A DNA stretch of 45,476 bases from Pseudodesulfovibrio sp. (GTDB taxonomy: Bacteria; Desulfobacterota; Desulfovibrionia; Desulfovibrionales; Desulfovibrionaceae), in contig NZ_JAQUWN010000015.1 of assembly GCF_028692895.1 (NCBI RefSeq), positions 1 to 45,476 on the forward strand. The letters are read 5' to 3'. A model generated the notes under the pieces. The model had not been told where the DNA came from and searched no databases. It saw only the letters and a list, made by a program, of their open reading frames with translations. The position numbers and the translations under genes are program-made. Each line of letters starts with the position of its first letter. Position 1 is the stretch's first letter. Shown here piece after piece: positions 7,101 through 45,194 of the stretch.

Positions 7101-8350
7101 TCCAGGTTGAGCACGCCGTCGTTGCCGTCCAGGTAGACCGGGATGAAGATGACGCAGCAGTGGTTGTCCGTGGTGTTGTCGAGCTTGAGCTCGCGGCAGC
7201 GGCGGACGATGGGGTCCTGCTCGGCGTCGCCCAGGTGGTGGGTGGCGATGCCCGCGTATTTCTCGATGTTGTACTGCTCGGTCCTGAGGCGCTTGCGGGT
7301 CTCGTCGCTGAAGCCCGCGTAGCCGGAGGAGACCAGGAGGAATGCGACCACGGTGACGTCGTTGTCCGTCTCGGCGAGCTTGCGGTCCGCGTCGCCCAGG
7401 GCGTCGAGGAGCAGGTCGATGCCCTTGTTGTGGAATTCGTATCGGCCGCTGGTGGCCAGCAGCAGCGTTTTTTCGGGCGTGAGCGGGCGGTCCAGGAACC
7501 GGGCGGCCAGGTCCACGAGCCGGGCCCGGGCCTCGGTGCGGGTGGCGGCCACGATGTCGGGCTCGGCGAAGCCCTCCAGGTTGAAGCCGTTGACCGTGAC
7601 CACGGCCGGGTTGGTGCCCAGCAGGTTGGCGGCCTCGCGCTGGGTGATGTTGGACACGGTGGTGAAGCAGTCGGCCTCGCGGGCGGACACGGACTCCATG
7701 GAGTGCTTGGCCGTGACGCCATAGGCCTTGGCCTCCTGGCTGGGCTCGATCTCCTCCAGCCGCTCGTAGATGTCCACCCCCGCGCCGGACATTGCCCGGC
7801 CGAGCATGGTGGCGTGGGTGGTCAGCACCGTGGAGACGGACGGCGCGTGCTTCTTGAGGAAGAGCACGCCCGCGCCGGACATCCACTCGTGGAAGTGGGC
7901 GAAAACGTCGGCCGTCTCGGCCGCGTCGTCGCCGAATTCCTTGATGATCGTGGCCGCCGCCGAGCTGAACAGGACCGGCTCGATGTAGTCCCAGGCCCCG
8001 GCCATGGAGTCCACGCCGAAGTCGTTCCAGAACTGGAAGAGGAGTTTGTCCGGCTCGGGAAAGGCGTTCTGGAAGCCGATGAGCAGGACGTAGGGCTGGC
8101 CGGGGATGTCCCAGCGGCCGAATTTGGTCTCGATGCCAGCCGCCTTGGCCCTATCCAGGGCCGGGGCGAGTTCCTCGGGGGCGTCGCAGGGCTCGAACCC
8201 GGGGTTGCGGTCGAGCAGCGGGCCCATGGCTACGTATCGGCCCTCGAAGGCCGCGACGGCTTGCGCGGCCTTGCTGCTGATGACGGTGAATATCCCGCCC
8301 ACCTTGTTGCAGACTTCCCAGGACACTTCAAACAGCCAACGGGTTTCCAT
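4109..8350 (-). CDS. fused GT3-type glycogen synthase and GT35 alpha-glucan phosphorylase
   Basis: One uninterrupted frame of 1413 residues with two enzyme modules. Residues 1 to about 560 resemble the GT3 (eukaryote-like) glycogen synthase family: the N-terminal WEVCNKVGGIFTVISSKA nucleotide-sugar loop, TTHATMLGR, and the E-x7-E motif in FYEPWGYTPMESAAF. Residues about 575 to 1413 are an alpha-glucan phosphorylase of the short type with the DUF3417-like lead domain (DLANNLWWVWH); the pyridoxal-phosphate lysine is in EASGTSGMKAAVNG (about K1171), followed by LDGWWDEAF. GT3 enzymes extend glycogen from UDP- or ADP-glucose; GT35 removes glucose as glucose-1-phosphate. So one polypeptide appears to carry both synthesis and breakdown. 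The ATG at 8350 has an AGGAG 8 nt upstream; longer in-frame extensions overlap the GH57 gene and are not coding. It is the last gene of a four-gene operon and starts 14 nt after GH57. No stop or frameshift separates the modules. Confidence 0.87.
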   Translation of the reverse strand: METRWLFEVSWEVCNKVGGIFTVISSKAAQAVAAFEGRYVAMGPLLDRNPGFEPCDAPEELAPALDRAKAAGIETKFGRWDIPGQPYVLLIGFQNAFPEPDKLLFQFWNDFGVDSMAGAWDYIEPVLFSSAAATIIKEFGDDAAETADVFAHFHEWMSGAGVLFLKKHAPSVSTVLTTHATMLGRAMSGAGVDIYERLEEIEPSQEAKAYGVTAKHSMESVSAREADCFTTVSNITQREAANLLGTNPAVVTVNGFNLEGFAEPDIVAATRTEARARLVDLAARFLDRPLTPEKTLLLATSGRYEFHNKGIDLLLDALGDADRKLAETDNDVTVVAFLLVSSGYAGFSDETRKRLRTEQYNIEKYAGIATHHLGDAEQDPIVRRCRELKLDNTTDNHCCVIFIPVYLDGNDGVLNLEYYDALAGMDLTVFPSFYEPWGYTPMESAAFSVPTVTADRAGFGQWVMGKHPGGHPGVHVLNRLEDSYEIARAKLAEHLVTFTRWTPDERAYRSAETRRIAEEASWENFYPRYLEAYDAAAEIRTERIAGVQRMTRAPAGEISFSGVNTTQPRLRPFTVITELPPSLGRMRDLANNLWWVWHRDSQELFEWIDEDRWHRCGHNPVLFLDTMDATRLNQVAEDNEFMGRFASVLERFDDYMAQKAKADIQGITWKNPVSYFSMEFGLHESIPIYSGGLGLLAGDHIKSASDLNLPFVGISLLYKNGYFHQRINGNGEQVVEYRENDFAAMPITPVHNGGVEKILVAVELPGRTVQAQIWEVHVGRATLYLLDTDITENSRTDRDICSKLYEPSSKGRIEQEIVLGVGGIRMLRALSIEPSLYHLNEGHSAFLLFERIRQLMQTEGVDFATAKEIVRGSTVFTMHTPVPAGNERFQRSLVENYFRGYADQMGVPWDALWNLGHIYAEEADHLNMTVLALQLSCYRNGVSRLHGDVSRRMWMDLWRGFLLGEVPVGHVTNGVHIPSWLDERMRRDIESSCRISVHRSLADGQDWGCLDTLDDRMLWDTHVALKHRLYEEVRRSISGQWTREGEPPNRLRAFLDALNPDHLTLCFARRCTAYKRPTLLFHNLQRIKEILCNPQRPVNVIFAGKAHPADTIGASYINLICRLAKQDDFLGRVIFLEGYDIRLARLLVSGADVWLNNPTRLMEASGTSGMKAAVNGVPNCSILDGWWDEAFDGRNGWAVGSGLVYENQVSQDIVDADNLYATLETEVVPEFFDRPGDGIPHSWIHRMKEAMKTAFIQYGTHRMVNDYIRDMYLPAMAMAKRRAKSRFELSREVAEWKKRIPGRFSTVTIKEVSVEGISGDVFKLGNRLTIRAKVDRGQLLTEEILAEFIAATPNEEAVIGCVPMVLKHTEGNTLEYQAGYEPTHPGPLRYGVRVIPVHPGLNNKYEPRLIRWS

Positions 8351-8364
8351 GTTTTGATCTCCTG

Positions 8365-9570
8365 TTATTCCCGGCCGTTGCCGTTGCGGTTGTTGACGGT
8401 CAGGGCGAGGTCGTTGAGGACGTTCATGTAGGTGATGAACGCCTGGTGCGGGGTTTCGTAGGGGTTGAAGTACTTGTGCACGTCGCCGTCCGAGAACCAC
8501 TTGGTGCACATGTAGTAGAAGTGGTCGCTGGTCAGCAGCTCGCGCCAGGTGGCGATGAGCTCGTCGTCGCCGGTGTCCAGGACCTTGTCCTCCAGGGCGT
8601 AGGCCAGCTCGGCTGCCTGGTCCTGCATGGAGTTGCCGAGCCAGGCCGAGACGTCGCGCTCCAGGTCGGCCCAGGAGGTGAAGTAGGGCACGTCCAACTG
8701 GGCCATGGGGTCCAGGTCGGCCGCGGCCTCGGCCGGGGTGCGGAAAATGAAGTCCGGGTGGGCGAGGATGGCGCGCGGCAGGCTGCGGAAGAACTCGAAG
8801 ATGCCGGTGTCCGCCCACTGGTGCTCGCCGATGGTCTCGTAGTCCATGAAGAGGTTGACGATGTCGCCGTTGCCCGCGATGGCGTGGACCCAGCCCGCGA
8901 ACTTGTCCGCGTCGACCGGCCATTCGTCCCAGCCCCGGTCCGAGAAGCGGAAGGCCACGTCGTCGGAGAGGCGGTAGTTCTTGAGCAGGGCCTTGAGCCT
9001 GGTGCAGCCGGCGGGCTGGTAGACGTAGTTGGGCGAGCGCCAGCCCAGGACCTGGTCCGCGCCCTCGCACAGGATGTTCTTGTACCCCATCCGCTCCACT
9101 TCGAGGGCGAGGTCGTTGCTGTAGATCAGCTCGGTGTTGCGGAAGGTCACGGGCTTCTTGCCGAAGAACTCCTCCAGCACCTTGGCGTGCATCCTGACCT
9201 GCCGCCGGAACTCCTCGCGGGAGAAGAGGAAGGACAGGGAGTGGTAGTGGGTCTCGCCGATGAACTCCACGCACCCGGTCTCGGCCAGTTCGCGGAAGGA
9301 GTCCAGCACCTCGGGGCAGAACTCCTGGAACTGCTCCATGGCCACGCCGGTGATGGCGAAGGAGATGCGGAAGTCGCCCCGGAACTCGTTGATGAGGTCG
9401 AGCATCATCCGGTTGGCCGGGAGATAGCACTTCTCGGCCACCTTGCGCAGGATGTCGCGGTTGGCGTCGTCGTCGCGGTAGTGGTGGCTCACTCCCATGT
9501 CGAAGAAGGAATAGCCCTTGTTCAGGCGCATGGGCTGGTGCACCTGGAAATAGAAGCAGACAGGGATCAC
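8365..9570 (-). CDS. GH57 family glycoside hydrolase / glucanotransferase
   Basis: 401 residues starting at GTG (9570), preceded by GGAGG six nt upstream and overlapping the stop of the glycosyltransferase by 4 nt (GTGA), so the pair is probably translationally coupled. The GH57 signature regions are clear: HQP (11-13), FIGETHYHS (103-111), the nucleophile region FRNTEL (E147), and the acid/base region FMDYETIGEH (D243). Family members are alpha-amylases, 4-alpha-glucanotransferases or branching enzymes. The length is close to the short GH57 amylase-like group, and the context of synthase, phosphorylase and debranching enzyme points to trimming or branching of glycogen. There is no signal peptide, so it should act in the cytoplasm. 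The exact reaction cannot be told from sequence alone. Confidence 0.85.
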   Translation of the reverse strand: MIPVCFYFQVHQPMRLNKGYSFFDMGVSHHYRDDDANRDILRKVAEKCYLPANRMMLDLINEFRGDFRISFAITGVAMEQFQEFCPEVLDSFRELAETGCVEFIGETHYHSLSFLFSREEFRRQVRMHAKVLEEFFGKKPVTFRNTELIYSNDLALEVERMGYKNILCEGADQVLGWRSPNYVYQPAGCTRLKALLKNYRLSDDVAFRFSDRGWDEWPVDADKFAGWVHAIAGNGDIVNLFMDYETIGEHQWADTGIFEFFRSLPRAILAHPDFIFRTPAEAAADLDPMAQLDVPYFTSWADLERDVSAWLGNSMQDQAAELAYALEDKVLDTGDDELIATWRELLTSDHFYYMCTKWFSDGDVHKYFNPYETPHQAFITYMNVLNDLALTVNNRNGNGRE

Positions 9571-37789: not shown

Positions 37790-39166
37790 ATGGCATTACT
37801 CAGACACACCCCCGTTGAAGTGATGGAGCGCAAGGCGCTGACCATCAACCCGGCCAAGACGTGCCAGCCCATCGGCGCCATGTACGCCGCCCTGGGCATC
37901 CACGGCTGCCTGCCGCACTCCCACGGCTCGCAGGGCTGCTGCGCCTATCATCGCTCGGCGCTGACCCGGCACTACAAGGAGCCCGTCTCCGCGTCCACCA
38001 GCTCGTTCACGGAAGGCGCGTCCGTCTTCGGCGGCCACGCCAACCTGCTCCAGGCGATCAACAACATCTTCACGGTCTATGACCCCGAAGTGATCGCCGT
38101 GCACACCACCTGCCTGTCCGAGACCATCGGCGACGACCTGAACCAGATCTTCGACAAGGCGCGAAAGGAGGGCAAGGTGCCCGAGGGCAAGACCCTGCTG
38201 GGCGCCGCCACCCCGAGCTACGTGGGCTCCCACGTCACCGGCTTCTCCAACATGGTCAAGTCCATGGCCATGCTGGCCGAGCCCACCGGCAAGAAGACCC
38301 ACAAGGTCAACGTCATCCCCGGCTGGGTCGAGCCATCGGACATGGCCGAGATCAAGCGGTTGGCCGCGCTGGTCGGCGTTGACATCACCCTGTTCCCGGA
38401 CACCTCCGGGGTGCTCAACGCGCCCCTGACCGGCGAGTACAAGATGTTCCCCGACGGCGGCGTGACCATCAAGGAGCTCAAGGCCTGCGGCGACGCCATG
38501 GGCACCCTGGCCCTGGGCGAGTGGTGCTCGGCCGACGCGGCCCGCTGGCTCGACGCCAAGTGCAAGGTGCCCTGCACCGTGCTCGACATGCCCTTCGGCC
38601 TGGCCGCCACCGACCGGTTCATCGACGTGCTGCGCACCGTGGCGGGCGTCCCGGTTCCGGACGCGGTGGACTACGAGCGCGGCCAGTTGGTCGACATGAT
38701 CTCCGACATGCACCAGTACTTCTACGGCAAGCGCGTGGCCCTCTGGGGCGACCCGGACCAGCTCATCTCCATGTGCGAGTTCCTGGTCTCGCTCGACATG
38801 CAGCCCGTCTACGTCGTCACCGGCACCCCGGGCAAGTCCTTCGAGCGGCGGATCAAGGACATCTGCAAGGACCAGCCCTTCGAGGTCAAGGTCAAGGCCA
38901 AGGGCGACATGTTCCTGATGCACCAGTGGATCAAGAACGAGCCCGTGGACCTGCTCATCGGCAATACCTACGGCAAGTACATCGCCCGCGACGAGGACAT
39001 TCCTCTGCTCCGGTGGGGCTTCCCCATCCTGGACCGCCAGGGCCATCAGTACTTCCCGACAGTCGGCTACAAGGGCGGCCTCCGGTTGCTCGAAAAGATG
39101 TTGGACCTGCTCCTGGATCGCAAAGACCGCGATTCCTCCGAACAGGCGTTCGAGCTCGTCCTGTAG
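37790..39166 (+). CDS. nifK: nitrogenase MoFe protein beta chain NifK
   Basis: 458 residues. P-cluster ligands C25 (AKTCQPIGAMYA), C50 (HGSQGCCAYHR) and C108 (VHTTCLSETIGDD) are present. The N-terminal about 50-residue extension of Azotobacter NifK is missing, as is usual in this nitrogenase group. The C-terminal GFPILDRQGHQYFPTVGYKG block is conserved. It pairs with NifD in the alpha2-beta2 enzyme. 15 nt after nifD; followed by a strong stem-loop that separates the structural genes from the assembly genes. Confidence 0.96.
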   Translation: MALLRHTPVEVMERKALTINPAKTCQPIGAMYAALGIHGCLPHSHGSQGCCAYHRSALTRHYKEPVSASTSSFTEGASVFGGHANLLQAINNIFTVYDPEVIAVHTTCLSETIGDDLNQIFDKARKEGKVPEGKTLLGAATPSYVGSHVTGFSNMVKSMAMLAEPTGKKTHKVNVIPGWVEPSDMAEIKRLAALVGVDITLFPDTSGVLNAPLTGEYKMFPDGGVTIKELKACGDAMGTLALGEWCSADAARWLDAKCKVPCTVLDMPFGLAATDRFIDVLRTVAGVPVPDAVDYERGQLVDMISDMHQYFYGKRVALWGDPDQLISMCEFLVSLDMQPVYVVTGTPGKSFERRIKDICKDQPFEVKVKAKGDMFLMHQWIKNEPVDLLIGNTYGKYIARDEDIPLLRWGFPILDRQGHQYFPTVGYKGGLRLLEKMLDLLLDRKDRDSSEQAFELVL

Positions 39167-39281: not shown

Positions 39282-40454
39282 ATGACACCGACCGCCGTCT
39301 CATACGAGTCCCACCCCTGTTTCGGCATGACGTCCCGCAGCAAGGTCGGCCGCCTCCACCTGCCCGTGGCTCCGCGCGCCAACGCGCGCATCCGCTTCGC
39401 CCCCGGGGCCAAGGCCGCTCCGGCCATGCTCCCCGAGGAGGCCGTCTCCTGGCTGGAAGGCGAGCTTTCGGCCGGGGGGACCCCGGTCGGCATCGTGGGC
39501 ATCACCGGCCCCGGCGACCCCATGGCCACGCCCGACGCCACCCTGCGCACCCTCCGGATGGTGCGCGGGCGGCACCCCGAAATTTCCCTGTGCCTGACCA
39601 CCGTGGGCATCGGCGTGGAGCGCTATGCCGAGGCGCTCAAGGCGGTGGGGCTCTCCCACGTCACCCTGCTGGTGGACGCCGTGGACCCGGCCGTGGCCGA
39701 AGGCCTGTACGCCTGGATTCGCCCCTCCACCAGGACCATGCCACTGCCCGCCGCGGCCAGGGTGCTGGTGGACGAGCAGACCCGTGCCGTGAAGGCCCTC
39801 AAGGCGGCCGGTGTGGCCGTCAAGGTCAACACCACGGTCTATCCCGGCCACAACGCCGACCATGTGGAGGCCATCGCCAAGACCATGGCCGGGCTGGGCG
39901 CGGACATCATGGCCGTGGTCCCGTTCTGGCCCGGCAAGGAGGGCGGCGAGTTCCCGGCCACGCCGGACATGGACCTGCTGGCCCGGGTGCGCGACCAGGT
40001 CGCGCGCCACATCAATCTCATGCCTTCCTGGGAGGAGTGCGGCGAGGTCGTTTCCGGCCTGGAGAAGCGCCGGTCCCAGGGCGGCGTCTCCGCGACACTG
40101 CCCCGCCCGACCGGGGAGCGGCCCAACGTGGCCGTGGTCAGCGCGAACGGTATCGACGTGGACCTGCACCTGGGCCAGGCGGCCAGGGTGCTCATCTACG
40201 GTCCGCGCGAGGACAGGCTGCCCTGCCTGCTCGAGGTGCGCGACGCGCCGGATGCGGGCACGGGCGCCGCCCGCTGGCAGGAACTCGGCGAGCTGCTCGC
40301 CGACTGCTTCGTCCTCCTGGCGGCCAGCGCCGGGCCGAGCCCGCGCGAGCTGCTGGCCCGCGGCGGGCTGACGGTCATGATTACCGATGGTGAGATCGCC
40401 CCCACCGTGGACGTTCTCTACGGCGGCGGGAAAGGCAAGAAGTGCAAGAAGTAA
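39282..40454 (+). CDS. NifB paralogue lacking the radical-SAM cysteines, with NifX-like C-terminal domain
   Basis: 390 residues that align with the NifB at 43926 over nearly the whole length: HPCF (11-14), GRLHLPVAP, GITGPGDPMATPDAT (NifB: GIAGPGDPFANPAET), LSHVTLLVDAVDPAVAEGLYAW, VKVNTTVYPG, and a C-terminal NifX-like domain with VDLHLGQA and APDAG. Yet the CxxxCxxC loop aligns without a gap and every Cys is changed: C30, C34, C37 and C43 of NifB correspond to A33, I37, A40 and A46; C19 corresponds to V22 and C257 to W250. H11, C13, C104 and C253 are kept. So the radical-SAM cluster cannot form in the normal way, while the fold, the SAM-contacting GPGDP motif and the NifX-like domain remain. 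The frame is intact with normal codon use, so this is not a decaying pseudogene. Possible roles: cluster carrier, NifB partner or NifX/NafY-like chaperone. The tail GKGKKCKK is odd. Confidence 0.85.
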   Translation: MTPTAVSYESHPCFGMTSRSKVGRLHLPVAPRANARIRFAPGAKAAPAMLPEEAVSWLEGELSAGGTPVGIVGITGPGDPMATPDATLRTLRMVRGRHPEISLCLTTVGIGVERYAEALKAVGLSHVTLLVDAVDPAVAEGLYAWIRPSTRTMPLPAAARVLVDEQTRAVKALKAAGVAVKVNTTVYPGHNADHVEAIAKTMAGLGADIMAVVPFWPGKEGGEFPATPDMDLLARVRDQVARHINLMPSWEECGEVVSGLEKRRSQGGVSATLPRPTGERPNVAVVSANGIDVDLHLGQAARVLIYGPREDRLPCLLEVRDAPDAGTGAARWQELGELLADCFVLLAASAGPSPRELLARGGLTVMITDGEIAPTVDVLYGGGKGKKCKK

Positions 40455-40481: not shown

Positions 40482-40784
40482 ATGGCTGTACCCCAGAGAA
40501 TGATCATTTGCTGCCAGTCCTTCCGCGCCGCGGGCGACAAGAAGGGCATCTGCCACAAGCAGAGCGAGGGATTCCTCCAGTACATCGAGGAGGAGATCCT
40601 GGATCGCGGCATGGACGCGCTGGTGGTGGCCTCCACCTGCCTCAAGCAGTGTGAAAACGGCCCCATCATGGTTGTCCAGCCCGACAACTACTGGTTCAAG
40701 GGCGTGGATTCCGAGGAAGCCATCGATGCGATTTTGGACGGCCTCGAAGACGGCGAAGCCTGCGCCGACTACCTGCTGTCCTAG
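40482..40784 (+). CDS. thioredoxin-like [2Fe-2S] ferredoxin
   Basis: 100 residues. Cysteines at 10, 11, 24, 53 and 57 (IICCQSF, KGICHKQ, STCLKQCENGP) match the spacing of the clostridial 2Fe-2S ferredoxin, whose ligands are at 11, 24, 56 and 60. That family folds like thioredoxin, is dimeric, and has been reported to bind the MoFe protein. In this operon it may carry electrons to or protect nitrogenase, or deliver clusters or electrons to NifB-type assembly. GAGGAG precedes the ATG. It starts 27 nt after the NifB paralogue, to which it may be functionally tied. Confidence 0.87.
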   Translation: MAVPQRMIICCQSFRAAGDKKGICHKQSEGFLQYIEEEILDRGMDALVVASTCLKQCENGPIMVVQPDNYWFKGVDSEEAIDAILDGLEDGEACADYLLS

Positions 40785-40802
40785 GCGAAAGAGAGTCGCC
40801 CG

Positions 40803-41117
40803 ATGCCCGAAGCCGCCGTCATCCGTTCCTCAAGCGCAGCCTGCCCGCGTCCCCTGGCGCGGCGCGGCGGCCCGGAACTGATGCCGAACAACGGTCGGGG
40901 ACGCATCCCGGCCGCCCGCACCGTCGACAGGACTGTGGTCGGCGAGCGCACGGGGCGGTTGACGCACTCCACGGCTGAAGGCGGTCCCGCCGCTCCCTTC
41001 GGGGAGGTCCGGCGGGGCCAGGGCGGGGGCGGAACGCGCCGGGAAGCGGGTCCGGAGCCCGCGCTCCCCGAAGGCGCAAGGACCATATATCCCCAAGTCC
41101 CGGCTCGCCGGGCGTAA
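40803..41117 (+). CDS. doubtful small ORF between ferredoxin and nifE
   Basis: A 104-codon frame with GAGAG upstream of its ATG fills the gap almost exactly. The product is Arg/Gly/Pro/Ala-rich with no recognisable motif, signal peptide or membrane helix. Its third codon positions are less GC-rich than those of the nif genes on both sides, and it overlaps strong hairpins. I think it is more likely untranslated leader or spacer than a gene, but its position leaves it open. Confidence 0.2.
   Translation: MPEAAVIRSSSAACPRPLARRGGPELMPNNGRGRIPAARTVDRTVVGERTGRLTHSTAEGGPAAPFGEVRRGQGGGGTRREAGPEPALPEGARTIYPQVPARRA
40986..41016 (+). other. two-part RNA hairpin upstream of nifE
   Basis: CTCCC (40993-40997) and GGGAG (41002-41006) close a TTCG tetraloop; around it CCCGCCG (40986-40992) pairs with CGGCGGG (41010-41016) across a 3-nt bulge. 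No T run follows, so it looks like an mRNA processing or stability element rather than a terminator. Confidence 0.5.
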
Positions 41118-41142
41118 CCGACTGTTCCAAAAGGGGGAAGCC

Positions 41143-43925: not shown

Positions 43926-45194
43926 ATGATAAAGGATACCACCCGCCACCCGTGCTTCAACAAGGAATCCGCCGGTAGCTGCGGCCGCGTCCATCTCCCG
44001 GTCGCGCCCAAGTGCAACATCCAGTGCAACTACTGCAACCGCAAGTACGACTGCGTCAACGAGTCGCGCCCCGGCGTGACCAGCGGGGTGCTGAAGCCCT
44101 TCCAGGCCGCCGAATACATGCACAAGGTCCTGGAGAAGGAGCCGCGCATCACCGTGGCGGGCATCGCCGGTCCAGGCGACCCCTTCGCCAACCCGGCCGA
44201 GACCCTGGAGACCATGCGCCTCATCAACGCCGAGCACCCCGGACTGCTCTACTGCCTGTCCACCAACGGCATGGGCATCCTGCCGTACCTGGACGACATC
44301 GCCGAGATCGGCGTCTCCCACGTCACCATCACCATCTCGGCCGTGGACCCGGCCATCGGCGCCCGGATTTACGCCTGGGTCAAGGACGGCAACGTGGTCT
44401 ATCGCGGCGAGCAGGGCGCGGCTCTGCTGCTGGAGCGCCAGATAGCGGCCATCAAGGGCCTCAAGGAGCGCGGCGTCACCGTCAAGATCAACTCCATCGT
44501 CATCCCCGGCGTCAACGATCACCACATCGTGGAGGTGGCCAGGGTCTGCGCCGGGCTGGGCGCGGACATCCAGAACATGATCCCGCTCAAGCCCACGGCC
44601 GACACCCCCTTCGCCCACCTGCCCGAGCCCGGAAGCGAGACCGTCCTGCCCCTGCGCAAGGAGGCGGGCAAGGTCATCGCCCAGATGACCCACTGCCGCC
44701 GCTGCCGCGCCGACGCCGTCGGCCTGCTCGGCGACGACCAGTCGGCCGCCCTGTGCGGCGCCCTCCAGGCCTGCTCCAAGCTCAAGCCCCTGGAGGCCAA
44801 CGCCTCGAAGCCTTACGTGGCCGTGGCCACCCGCGAGGGCATGCTCGTCAACCAGCACCTGGGCGAGGCCAAGTCCTTTCAGATCTGGGGCGAGGCCGAG
44901 GGCGGCATCTACCGGCTCATCGGCGAGCGCCCGGCCCCGGACGCGGGCTGCGGCCCCAAGCGCTGGACCAGCCTGGCCGCCACTCTGCACGACTGCCGCG
45001 CCGTGCTCTGCGCCGCCGTGGGCGAGACGCCCAGGCTCATGCTGGAGGAGCACGGCATCGCCGCCCACGTGGTGGACGGCTTCATCCAGGATTCCCTGCG
45101 CGCCGTGTTCACCGGCGGAGACCTGCGCCTGTTCAAGGGACGCCGCGCCGGAATCGGCGGGGCCTGCACCGGCACCGGCGGCGGCTGCGGCTAG
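43926..45194 (+). CDS. nifB: FeMo-cofactor biosynthesis radical-SAM protein NifB with NifX-like domain
   Basis: 422 residues. It fuses two [4Fe-4S] clusters and inserts carbide from SAM to make NifB-co. The radical-SAM motif is C30-x3-C34-x2-C37. Other Cys expected to hold the precursor clusters are C10, C19, C43, C110, C257 and C260 (HPCF, SAGSCGR, YDC, LLYCLSTNGMG, THCRRC). GPGDP (83-87) is the SAM-contact motif. From about residue 300 a NifX/NafY-like domain follows (VAVATREGMLVNQHLGEAKS). The protein ends in a Gly/Cys-rich tail (GGACTGTGGGCG). Last gene of the nif operon, with CAGGAG before the ATG. It is the intact counterpart of the paralogue at 39282. Confidence 0.96.
   Translation: MIKDTTRHPCFNKESAGSCGRVHLPVAPKCNIQCNYCNRKYDCVNESRPGVTSGVLKPFQAAEYMHKVLEKEPRITVAGIAGPGDPFANPAETLETMRLINAEHPGLLYCLSTNGMGILPYLDDIAEIGVSHVTITISAVDPAIGARIYAWVKDGNVVYRGEQGAALLLERQIAAIKGLKERGVTVKINSIVIPGVNDHHIVEVARVCAGLGADIQNMIPLKPTADTPFAHLPEPGSETVLPLRKEAGKVIAQMTHCRRCRADAVGLLGDDQSAALCGALQACSKLKPLEANASKPYVAVATREGMLVNQHLGEAKSFQIWGEAEGGIYRLIGERPAPDAGCGPKRWTSLAATLHDCRAVLCAAVGETPRLMLEEHGIAAHVVDGFIQDSLRAVFTGGDLRLFKGRRAGIGGACTGTGGGCG

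Follow-up and report, generated by a model that had tools for sequence, protein, structure and literature searches.

A NifB-derived pseudoenzyme in the nif operon of Pseudodesulfovibrio and its relatives, a candidate metallocluster carrier

NifB, the NifX-like carriers and additional nifB copies

How NifB-co and FeMo-co pass from one to another of the proteins NifB, NifEN and NifDK is a subject of current interest. In NifB of M. thermautotrophicus the 8Fe K-cluster is ligated by C18, H31, C115, C260 and C263, and in the Methanotrix thermoacetophila enzyme a flexible plug loop bears C62 and E65 (PMC9692996). The histidine that binds this cluster (H43 in M. acetivorans NifB) is distinct from the histidine of the HPC motif (PMC7145814), which is one of the six fingerprint motifs that have been set out for NifB; a Klebsiella NifB without its NifX-like domain stayed active (PMC5715403). 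In a cryo-EM handover complex, H35 of the NifB-co carrier NifX ligates an apical iron of NifB-co (PMC13128457), and H121 of NafY is the key FeMo-co ligand, within a motif said to be common to NifX and NifB (PMC8496260). NafY and NifY, the FeMo-co chaperones of apo-NifDK, bind the cofactor-less MoFe protein (PMC6016461). The NifY of A. vinelandii does not have the histidine (PMC13128457), whereas the Rahnella NifY-type protein does.

Additional NifB-like proteins have been described in two settings. The Paenibacillus NifB3 and NifB4 are, like the protein analyzed here, extra copies of NifB; they are non-essential, and some of them lack a motif or the NifX-like domain. Unlike that protein, the two-domain Paenibacillus copies keep Cx3Cx2C and the other motifs, and two NifB3 proteins lack both Cx2CRxDAxG and the NifX-like domain (PMC8287671). 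In Pseudodesulfovibrio methanolicus, nifB_1 and nifB_2 were reported in a nif cluster together with ferredoxin and P-II genes; both are called nifB, and the passages concerned make no mention of a missing catalytic site (PMC11505543). Compared by description, they are probably the same gene pair as the one treated below, which comes from the same genus. Among the matches listed in a search of titles and abstracts, drawn largely from papers other than subscription ones, none dealt with a NifB-like protein lacking the radical-SAM cysteines or gave a function for one, in agreement with the initial annotation, whose author knew of no such function.

A NifB paralogue without the radical-SAM cluster site

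The window, i.e., the whole stretch of 45,476 nucleotides of Pseudodesulfovibrio sp. DNA analyzed here, carries two NifB-like genes (Table 1). The product of the first, at 39282..40454, had been annotated as a NifB paralogue devoid of radical-SAM cysteines, with an intact NifB in the same operon, and BLAST and MAFFT comparisons bore this out: the two proteins share 32% identity over 394 alignment columns (BLAST, E 5e-70). With Pfam, the 39282..40454 protein matched Radical_SAM at 38.9 bits and Nitro_FeMo-Co at 25.9 bits, the latter just below the cut-off of 26.3, and its score with the NifB model TIGR01290 was 159.5 bits, far from the cut-off of 343.65. An AlphaFold2 model computed with 44 relatives as input had a mean pLDDT of 86 and a pTM of 0.71, being poor at residues 253-270 and at both termini, and the best Foldseek matches to it were solved NifB structures (6y1x, 7bi7, 7jmb and 7jma). 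The protein is like NifB in its barrel fold, its NifX-like C-terminal domain, its ancestry and its operon; it is unlike NifB in the catalytic motifs.

Table 1. Features of the pseudoenzyme gene and of its neighbours (coordinates in the window; fractions refer to the relatives described in the text).
Feature	Position	Strand	Observation
nifK, upstream neighbour	37790..39166	+	Adjoining upstream gene in 76/80 named-record loci
NifB-derived pseudoenzyme	39282..40454	+	390 aa; degenerate radical-SAM barrel, then NifX/NafY-like C-terminal domain
C13, counterpart of M. thermautotrophicus C18 (bridging K-cluster ligand; PMC9692996)	39318..39320	+	102/126 relatives
H26, counterpart of K-cluster H31 (H43 in M. 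acetivorans)	39357..39359	+	51/60 family rows, 6/66 further relatives
Degenerate cluster loop, residues 33-40, then 11-residue deletion	39378..39401	+	Ala, Ile and Ala in place of the three NifB cysteines
GPGDP, residues 76-80	39507..39521	+	D79 kept in 117/126 relatives
C104, counterpart of K-cluster C115	39591..39593	+	50/60 family rows, 2/66 further relatives
W250, where NifB has K-cluster C260	40029..40031	+	Cysteine in 0/126 at this column
C253, counterpart of K-cluster C263	40038..40040	+	52/60 family rows, 3/66 further relatives
NifX/NafY-like domain, residues about 282-383	40125..40430	+	Mean column conservation 0.73, barrel 0.56 (126 relatives)
H296, counterpart of NifX H35 and NafY H121	40167..40169	+	126/126 relatives
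C342, invariant cysteine in NifX-like domain	40305..40307	+	126/126 relatives
Lysine-rich C-terminal tail	40431..40451	+	At least 3 Lys/Arg among last 12 residues in 124/126 relatives
2Fe-2S ferredoxin, downstream neighbour, 27 bp off	40482..40784	+	NCBIfam fdxn_Clost 48.6 bits, cut-off of 150 not reached
Intact NifB, catalytic copy	43926..45194	+	TIGR01290 388.4 bits, above 343.65; Cx3Cx2C, HPC and Cx2CRxDAxG present

The cysteines C30, C34 and C37 of the operon NifB correspond to A33, I37 and A40, as the initial annotation had it, and C19 and C257, which it also gave as replaced, correspond to V22 and W250. The annotation had further read C43 as replaced by alanine in a gapless alignment across the cluster loop; this reading did not hold, since 11 residues are missing immediately behind the third cysteine position in the BLAST alignment and in that of MAFFT. 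The deletion removes C43, i.e., the plug-loop cysteine that corresponds to C62 of the M. thermoacetophila enzyme (PMC9692996), as well as the loop glutamate of NifB. The survival of H11, C13, C104 and C253, of GPGDP and of the NifX-like C-terminal domain was confirmed by the alignments. Of the six fingerprint motifs (PMC5715403) only HPC, which contains the bridging K-cluster cysteine, is found in the protein, and this motif is present in 48/126 relatives. ExRP, AGPG and TxTxN are absent, and occur in 14, 25 and 1 of the 126 relatives, respectively (TxTxN is also missing in the true NifB of the window and in 16/48 NifB rows), and Cx2CRxDAxG, which provides the K2 ligands, is found neither in the protein nor in any of the 126 relatives, C253 being what remains of its two cysteines. 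As it lacks CxxxCxxC, the site of the cluster on which radical-SAM chemistry depends, this protein would not be expected to be catalytic.

The 126 distinct relatives were those left after repeats and fragments had been dropped (60 rows from the family of the window and 66 others, some of them also of that family); they were drawn from open frames, so that broken copies would escape. CxxxCxxC was found nowhere in the sequence of any of the 126, whereas all 48 NifB rows have it. The plug-loop cysteine is likewise missing from all 126, and a lone cysteine at one of the three radical-SAM positions is seen in 11 of them, two cysteines in none. The first sorting of relatives from NifB partly used the presence of CxxxCxxC, and it was repeated by BLAST score alone: among 106 NifB-like frames, all 65 that were nearer to the 39282..40454 protein lacked the motif and all 41 nearer to NifB carried it. 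The 66 further relatives, which were sorted by profile score, lacked it without exception. This split between the family and NifB is far beyond chance. A sequencing error or frameshift was ruled out as the source of the loss, which is common to 126 relatives from many assemblies.

A slot between nifK and the ferredoxin gene

In the window, nifV on the minus strand is followed on the plus strand by nifH, nifI1, nifI2, nifD, nifK, the gene at 39282-40454, the 2Fe-2S ferredoxin gene, nifE, nifN and nifB; apart from nifB, nifV and the ferredoxin gene, these genes were named by their sequence and by comparison with the annotated cluster of N. vulgaris. The position between nifK and the ferredoxin gene is thus as first annotated. 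The gap ahead of nifE (40785-41142) has 358 bases, and about 480-510 in many relatives. Rfam models at their gathering thresholds gave no match in the window, and the sigma-54 promoter pattern occurred 10 times where 7.0 were expected, a chance level that was reached in 15/100 shuffles.

The gene is widespread. Among 36 genomes of the genus of the window, 29 have it, in one case as a fragment at the edge of a contig; NifB alone is present in 2, and both are missing from 5. With the family profile, 61 of 297 genomes of the order gave a row scoring 399 bits or more, the next row (377 bits) being a NifB, and 153 of the same draw gave any match at 1e-60; among 395 genomes of the phylum, 14 gave a row above 400 bits, out of 59 with a match at 1e-90, and three of the 14 were read. 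A scan of genome contigs yielded 153 relatives, of which 80 were kept as named loci, from Pseudodesulfovibrio, Humidesulfovibrio, Halodesulfovibrio, Desulfobulbaceae, Desulfocapsaceae, Desulfurivibrionaceae, Desulfarculaceae and the cable bacteria Electrothrix and Electronema. Nine genera or more of the family of the window have the gene, which also occurs beyond that family, cable bacteria included. The NifB-like proteins of this slot that lack CxxxCxxC form an old family.

The ferredoxin gene adjoins downstream in 79 of the 80 named loci, the remaining one (L096) ending at a contig edge, and nifK fails to adjoin in only four, one of which begins at a contig edge (L116) while in three the gene lies apart from nifK (L138, L157 and L164). 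Since nifE, nifN and nifB lie kilobases off, or outside the stretch read, at many of the loci, it is nifK and the ferredoxin gene that are the steady partners. The three loci in which the gene and the ferredoxin gene stay together away from nifK would fit a protein that works together with the 2Fe-2S ferredoxin next to it, in electron transfer or in protection, and acts on NifDK rather than on its cofactor. We regard such a role as very improbable, given that the ferredoxin gene also follows nifK in 13 clusters that do not have the gene, and that a search for known electron-transfer features in the protein found none. In these 13 clusters (L066, L067, L077, which is that of N. vulgaris, L166, L169, L172-L176, L179, L185 and L206) the ferredoxin gene comes directly after nifK, and neither the pseudoenzyme gene nor a NifX-like gene is present in the stretch read; in two more (L177 and L181) nifK is followed by nifE. 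In a Rahnella nif cluster, the place after nifK is taken by nifT and a NifY-type gene, the name NifY being given by position.

The slot has other occupants as well. In genus g15 (L178 and L196) it holds a copy that has CxxxCxxC, CxxC, the cysteine of the plug loop and the K histidine and lacks HPC and a counterpart of C115. In genus g10 (L070 and L193) the copy has CxxxCxxC and none of the K ligands, which is the opposite loss to that of the protein of the window; both g10 copies score slightly nearer to the family profile than to that of NifB (275 vs 257 and 272 vs 250 bits). These CxxxCxxC-bearing copies were counted apart, outside the 126. At L191 and L197 the copy has no CxxxCxxC and a degenerate N-terminus. 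In genus g55 (L180 and L199-L203) the slot contains a free-standing NifX-like protein of 113-120 aa, with the histidine in an HLG motif and no barrel, in all six clusters read, out of 11 g55 genomes with a match; the profile scores of the L180 protein were 137 bits for the slot family and 96 bits for NifB.

A tree of 72 rows was built without the cluster loop. Its rows were hand-picked. Of the 126 relatives, 48 were chosen and 45 remained, since L053, L138 and L145 have no GPGD anchor and dropped out; two short NifB rows were excluded. All slot proteins of this tree fell on one side of NifB, with a support of 100/100, and the CxxxCxxC-bearing copies and those of genus g43 lay outside the 45 other slot rows. 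The tree of the NifX domain (108 columns) had weak deep support, separated NifB as one group from the rest at only 71/66, and left the NifX-only proteins among the slot proteins; the longer tree was preferred. The simplest account of these trees would be that a duplicate of nifB settled in the slot and passed the NifX-like domain on to all its descendants, the NifX-only form having perhaps arisen through loss of the barrel. Because the order of the deepest forks is not firm (88/51), it is uncertain how many times the radical-SAM site was lost. In the 72-row tree the Desulfobulbaceae and Desulfocapsaceae relatives branch within those of Desulfovibrionaceae, which suggests a transfer of the nif operon between orders.

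The retained cofactor histidine, the K ligands and candidate functions

Residues 277-390 alone matched the NafY core (1p90) with E 0.0029, and H296 was aligned with its HFG histidine. The match to NifX (9ian), in which the HFG histidine was aligned as well, was not significant alone, at E 0.1 with an unrelated human zinc-finger protein next at E 0.6. H296 was also aligned with the HFG histidine of the NifX-, NifY- and NifB-type proteins of Rahnella, so that the protein has the NifX-like domain and the cofactor histidine (HFG or HLG) that characterize the NifX/NafY family. W332 is kept in 126/126 relatives, and the third residue past H296 is His or Gln in 124/126, whereas it is Glu in 44 of the 45 local NifB rows that have a residue in this column. 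Although it shares with NifX the domain family (by a weak match) and the place of the histidine, the protein differs from it in the barrel that stands in front of the domain and in the tail, which is lysine-rich, whereas the C-terminus of NifX binds a positive patch of NifE (PMC13128457). The NifX model TIGR02663 did not match the protein, and the Rahnella control genes, at 92 and 81 bits, also remained below its cut-off of 112; in 35 genomes of the group neither NifX nor NafY was recognised, the best TIGR02663 match being 30.6 bits. From NafY and NifY the protein differs in its N-terminal part, which is the degenerate NifB barrel and not a NafY-type N-terminal domain.

Our preferred reading, to which we give a probability of about 0.55, is that the 39282..40454 protein is a NifB pseudoenzyme that acts as a metallocluster carrier or chaperone of the NifX/NafY type. 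It would carry NifB-co or FeMo-co, or hold apo-NifDK ready for insertion. Like H35 of NifX and H121 of NafY, H296 would bind the cofactor, NifB-co or FeMo-co, at an apical iron. The carrier would dock on apo-NifDK (or NifEN) through its degenerate barrel and basic tail, in the manner of the N-terminal domain of NafY, and the cofactor would then be handed over to NifDK or NifEN. In the subgroup of the window, the barrel, with four of the five K-cluster ligands, may offer a second, temporary berth for a cluster. This reading is suggested by the retained cofactor grip, by the place of the gene close after nifK, as with the NifY-type gene of Rahnella, by the binding of NafY and NifY to the cofactor-less MoFe protein, and by the finding of no NifX or NafY in the 35 genomes; it is supported by the six g55 clusters that keep only the NifX-like domain in the slot, by the invariance of H296, W332 and C342, by a NifX-like domain better conserved than the barrel, and by the single clade that the slot proteins form against NifB. 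Against it stand the 13 clusters that have neither the pseudoenzyme gene nor a nif-linked NifX-like gene, on account of which the gene would be an aid rather than a requirement, or its task would be covered by the NifX-like domain of NifB itself. In addition, the N-terminal domains of NafY and NifY are not homologous to the barrel, so that docking is proposed by analogy only, and PF02579 proteins encoded outside the operon could carry the cofactor instead. The weak match to NifX and a dN/dS above that of all seven nif neighbours also speak against it. Four further PF02579 (NifX-like) matches lie outside the nif operon in the genome of the window, at least one of them with HFG. Two non-nif PF02579 matches of this genome are at G000:C33:970-3368 (L079 and L080, the second having HFG), with a ferredoxin-bearing ATPase-like frame nearby. 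A simple substitution for a lost NifX is not supported, as the clusters without the gene are also without NifX.

A catalytically dead copy can regulate its active partner when both are encoded in the same operon. The protein could in this way pair with NifB, NifEN or NifDK and limit the flux of NifB-co or occupy a docking site, much like the placeholder or antagonist roles suggested for NifY and NafX, which have been raised for NifX-like proteins without the histidine (PMC13128457). Such a regulator or competitor appears unlikely, because the histidine is kept in all 126 relatives, unlike in A. vinelandii NifY and NafX, and because nifK and the ferredoxin gene, rather than nifB, are the constant neighbours of the gene. 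Of the three roles offered in the initial annotation, that of carrier or chaperone is therefore favoured, as it is the cofactor histidine and not the K ligands that is kept in 126/126 relatives, and the loss of the K ligands in most relatives makes cluster donation less likely as a role of the family as a whole; regulation of NifB is neither supported nor excluded, and the gene is tightly linked to nifK and the ferredoxin gene.

Some of the surviving residues had been said to match ligands of the precursor cluster. Some are indeed K-cluster ligands, whereas H11 is the HPC histidine and no ligand; the true counterpart of the K histidine is H26, which survives likewise. The five K-ligand positions correspond to C13, H26, C104, W250 and C253, so that four of the five ligands are retained, and all four are found together in 45/126 relatives (45/60 rows of the family of the window and 0/66 further relatives). 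The barrel could thus hold a fused 8Fe precursor on these four residues and pass it to NifB or NifEN, as a donor or parking site. That 45 of the 60 family rows keep all four while the radical-SAM positions drift freely fits this idea, which we nevertheless find improbable, and conceivable for a subgroup only: the other 15 family rows have lost at least one ligand, none of the further relatives keeps the set, the fifth ligand is a cysteine in none of the 126, and C253 lies in a part of the model with low confidence. As a function of the whole family, donation of the K-cluster was rejected, the ligands being absent in most further relatives.

The selection acting on the gene was estimated by NG86, with dS rough in these GC-rich genomes. 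In 12 pairs dN/dS was 0.09-0.44, and in all 12 it exceeded the values for nifH, nifD, nifK, the ferredoxin gene, nifE, nifN and nifB. In the closest 40 of 703 pairs (dS < 1.2) it was 0.12-0.96, and the five values above 0.5 all involved row L051; in the highest pair, L051 with L055 (0.96), the barrel gave 1.18 and the NifX-like domain 0.48. The gene is under purifying but loose selection, loosest in the barrel of some lines. The claim that a catalytically dead copy is kept under selection in the nif operon is thus upheld, and of the two signs of decay named beforehand, random stop codons did not appear (no internal stop in 29/29 genus rows), while selection proved to be purifying and yet looser than on all seven nif neighbours. 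In the order-wide search, four rows showed one stop, which was not seen for the same genes in other searches and is probably the final stop. A recent pseudogene is ruled out by the intact frames and the dN/dS values, with the caveat of the one near-neutral pair.

A relic of a nifB duplication, on its way out and of no important function, would account for this faster evolution in 12/12 pairs, for the pair near neutrality, for the absence of the gene from 13 related nif clusters, and for the loss of the radical-SAM and K sites and, at six loci, of the whole barrel. We hold this to be quite improbable, since internal stops are lacking, dN/dS is well below 1 in most pairs, residues of the NifX-like domain are invariant and the neighbours are stable over several families.

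A broader form of the carrier reading may be put forward tentatively from these comparisons. Independently of NifX, NafY and NifY, a nitrogenase cofactor carrier would have arisen from a NifB duplicate, and catalysis would have been lost differently from genus to genus: in one line the radical-SAM site went, in another the K ligands went and the radical-SAM site stayed, and in a third perhaps the whole barrel was lost, while the NifX-like grip was kept; in the Pseudodesulfovibrio type, the dead barrel might hold an 8Fe precursor on the four K ligands, which would make it a two-berth relay to NifDK. The pseudoenzyme gene is a candidate for the step in which the cofactor moves between the assembly proteins, and this natural separation of the halves of NifB offers a probe for the role of the NifX-like domain and for K ligands that hold a cluster without a radical-SAM site. 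Such genes should not be counted as second catalytic copies of nifB; a second nifB is counted in what is probably this operon in PMC11505543.

Two further observations concern NifB-like sequences. In the six relatives of genus g38 (L057 and L059-L063), the degenerate loop carries an insertion with cysteines, which reads CACG in five rows and CACG or CACGQ-like in all six rows shown, with H26 replaced by Leu and C253 by Asp in all six and C104 kept in five. In G005 and G010, a further NifB-like protein (L071, about 7965-8936 on the plus strand, and L072, on the minus strand; frames of 324 and 306 aa), for which no other nif gene was matched within the 14-16 kb read, has HPC, CxxxCxxC and a C-terminal CxxC, together with a different plug loop and no NifX domain.
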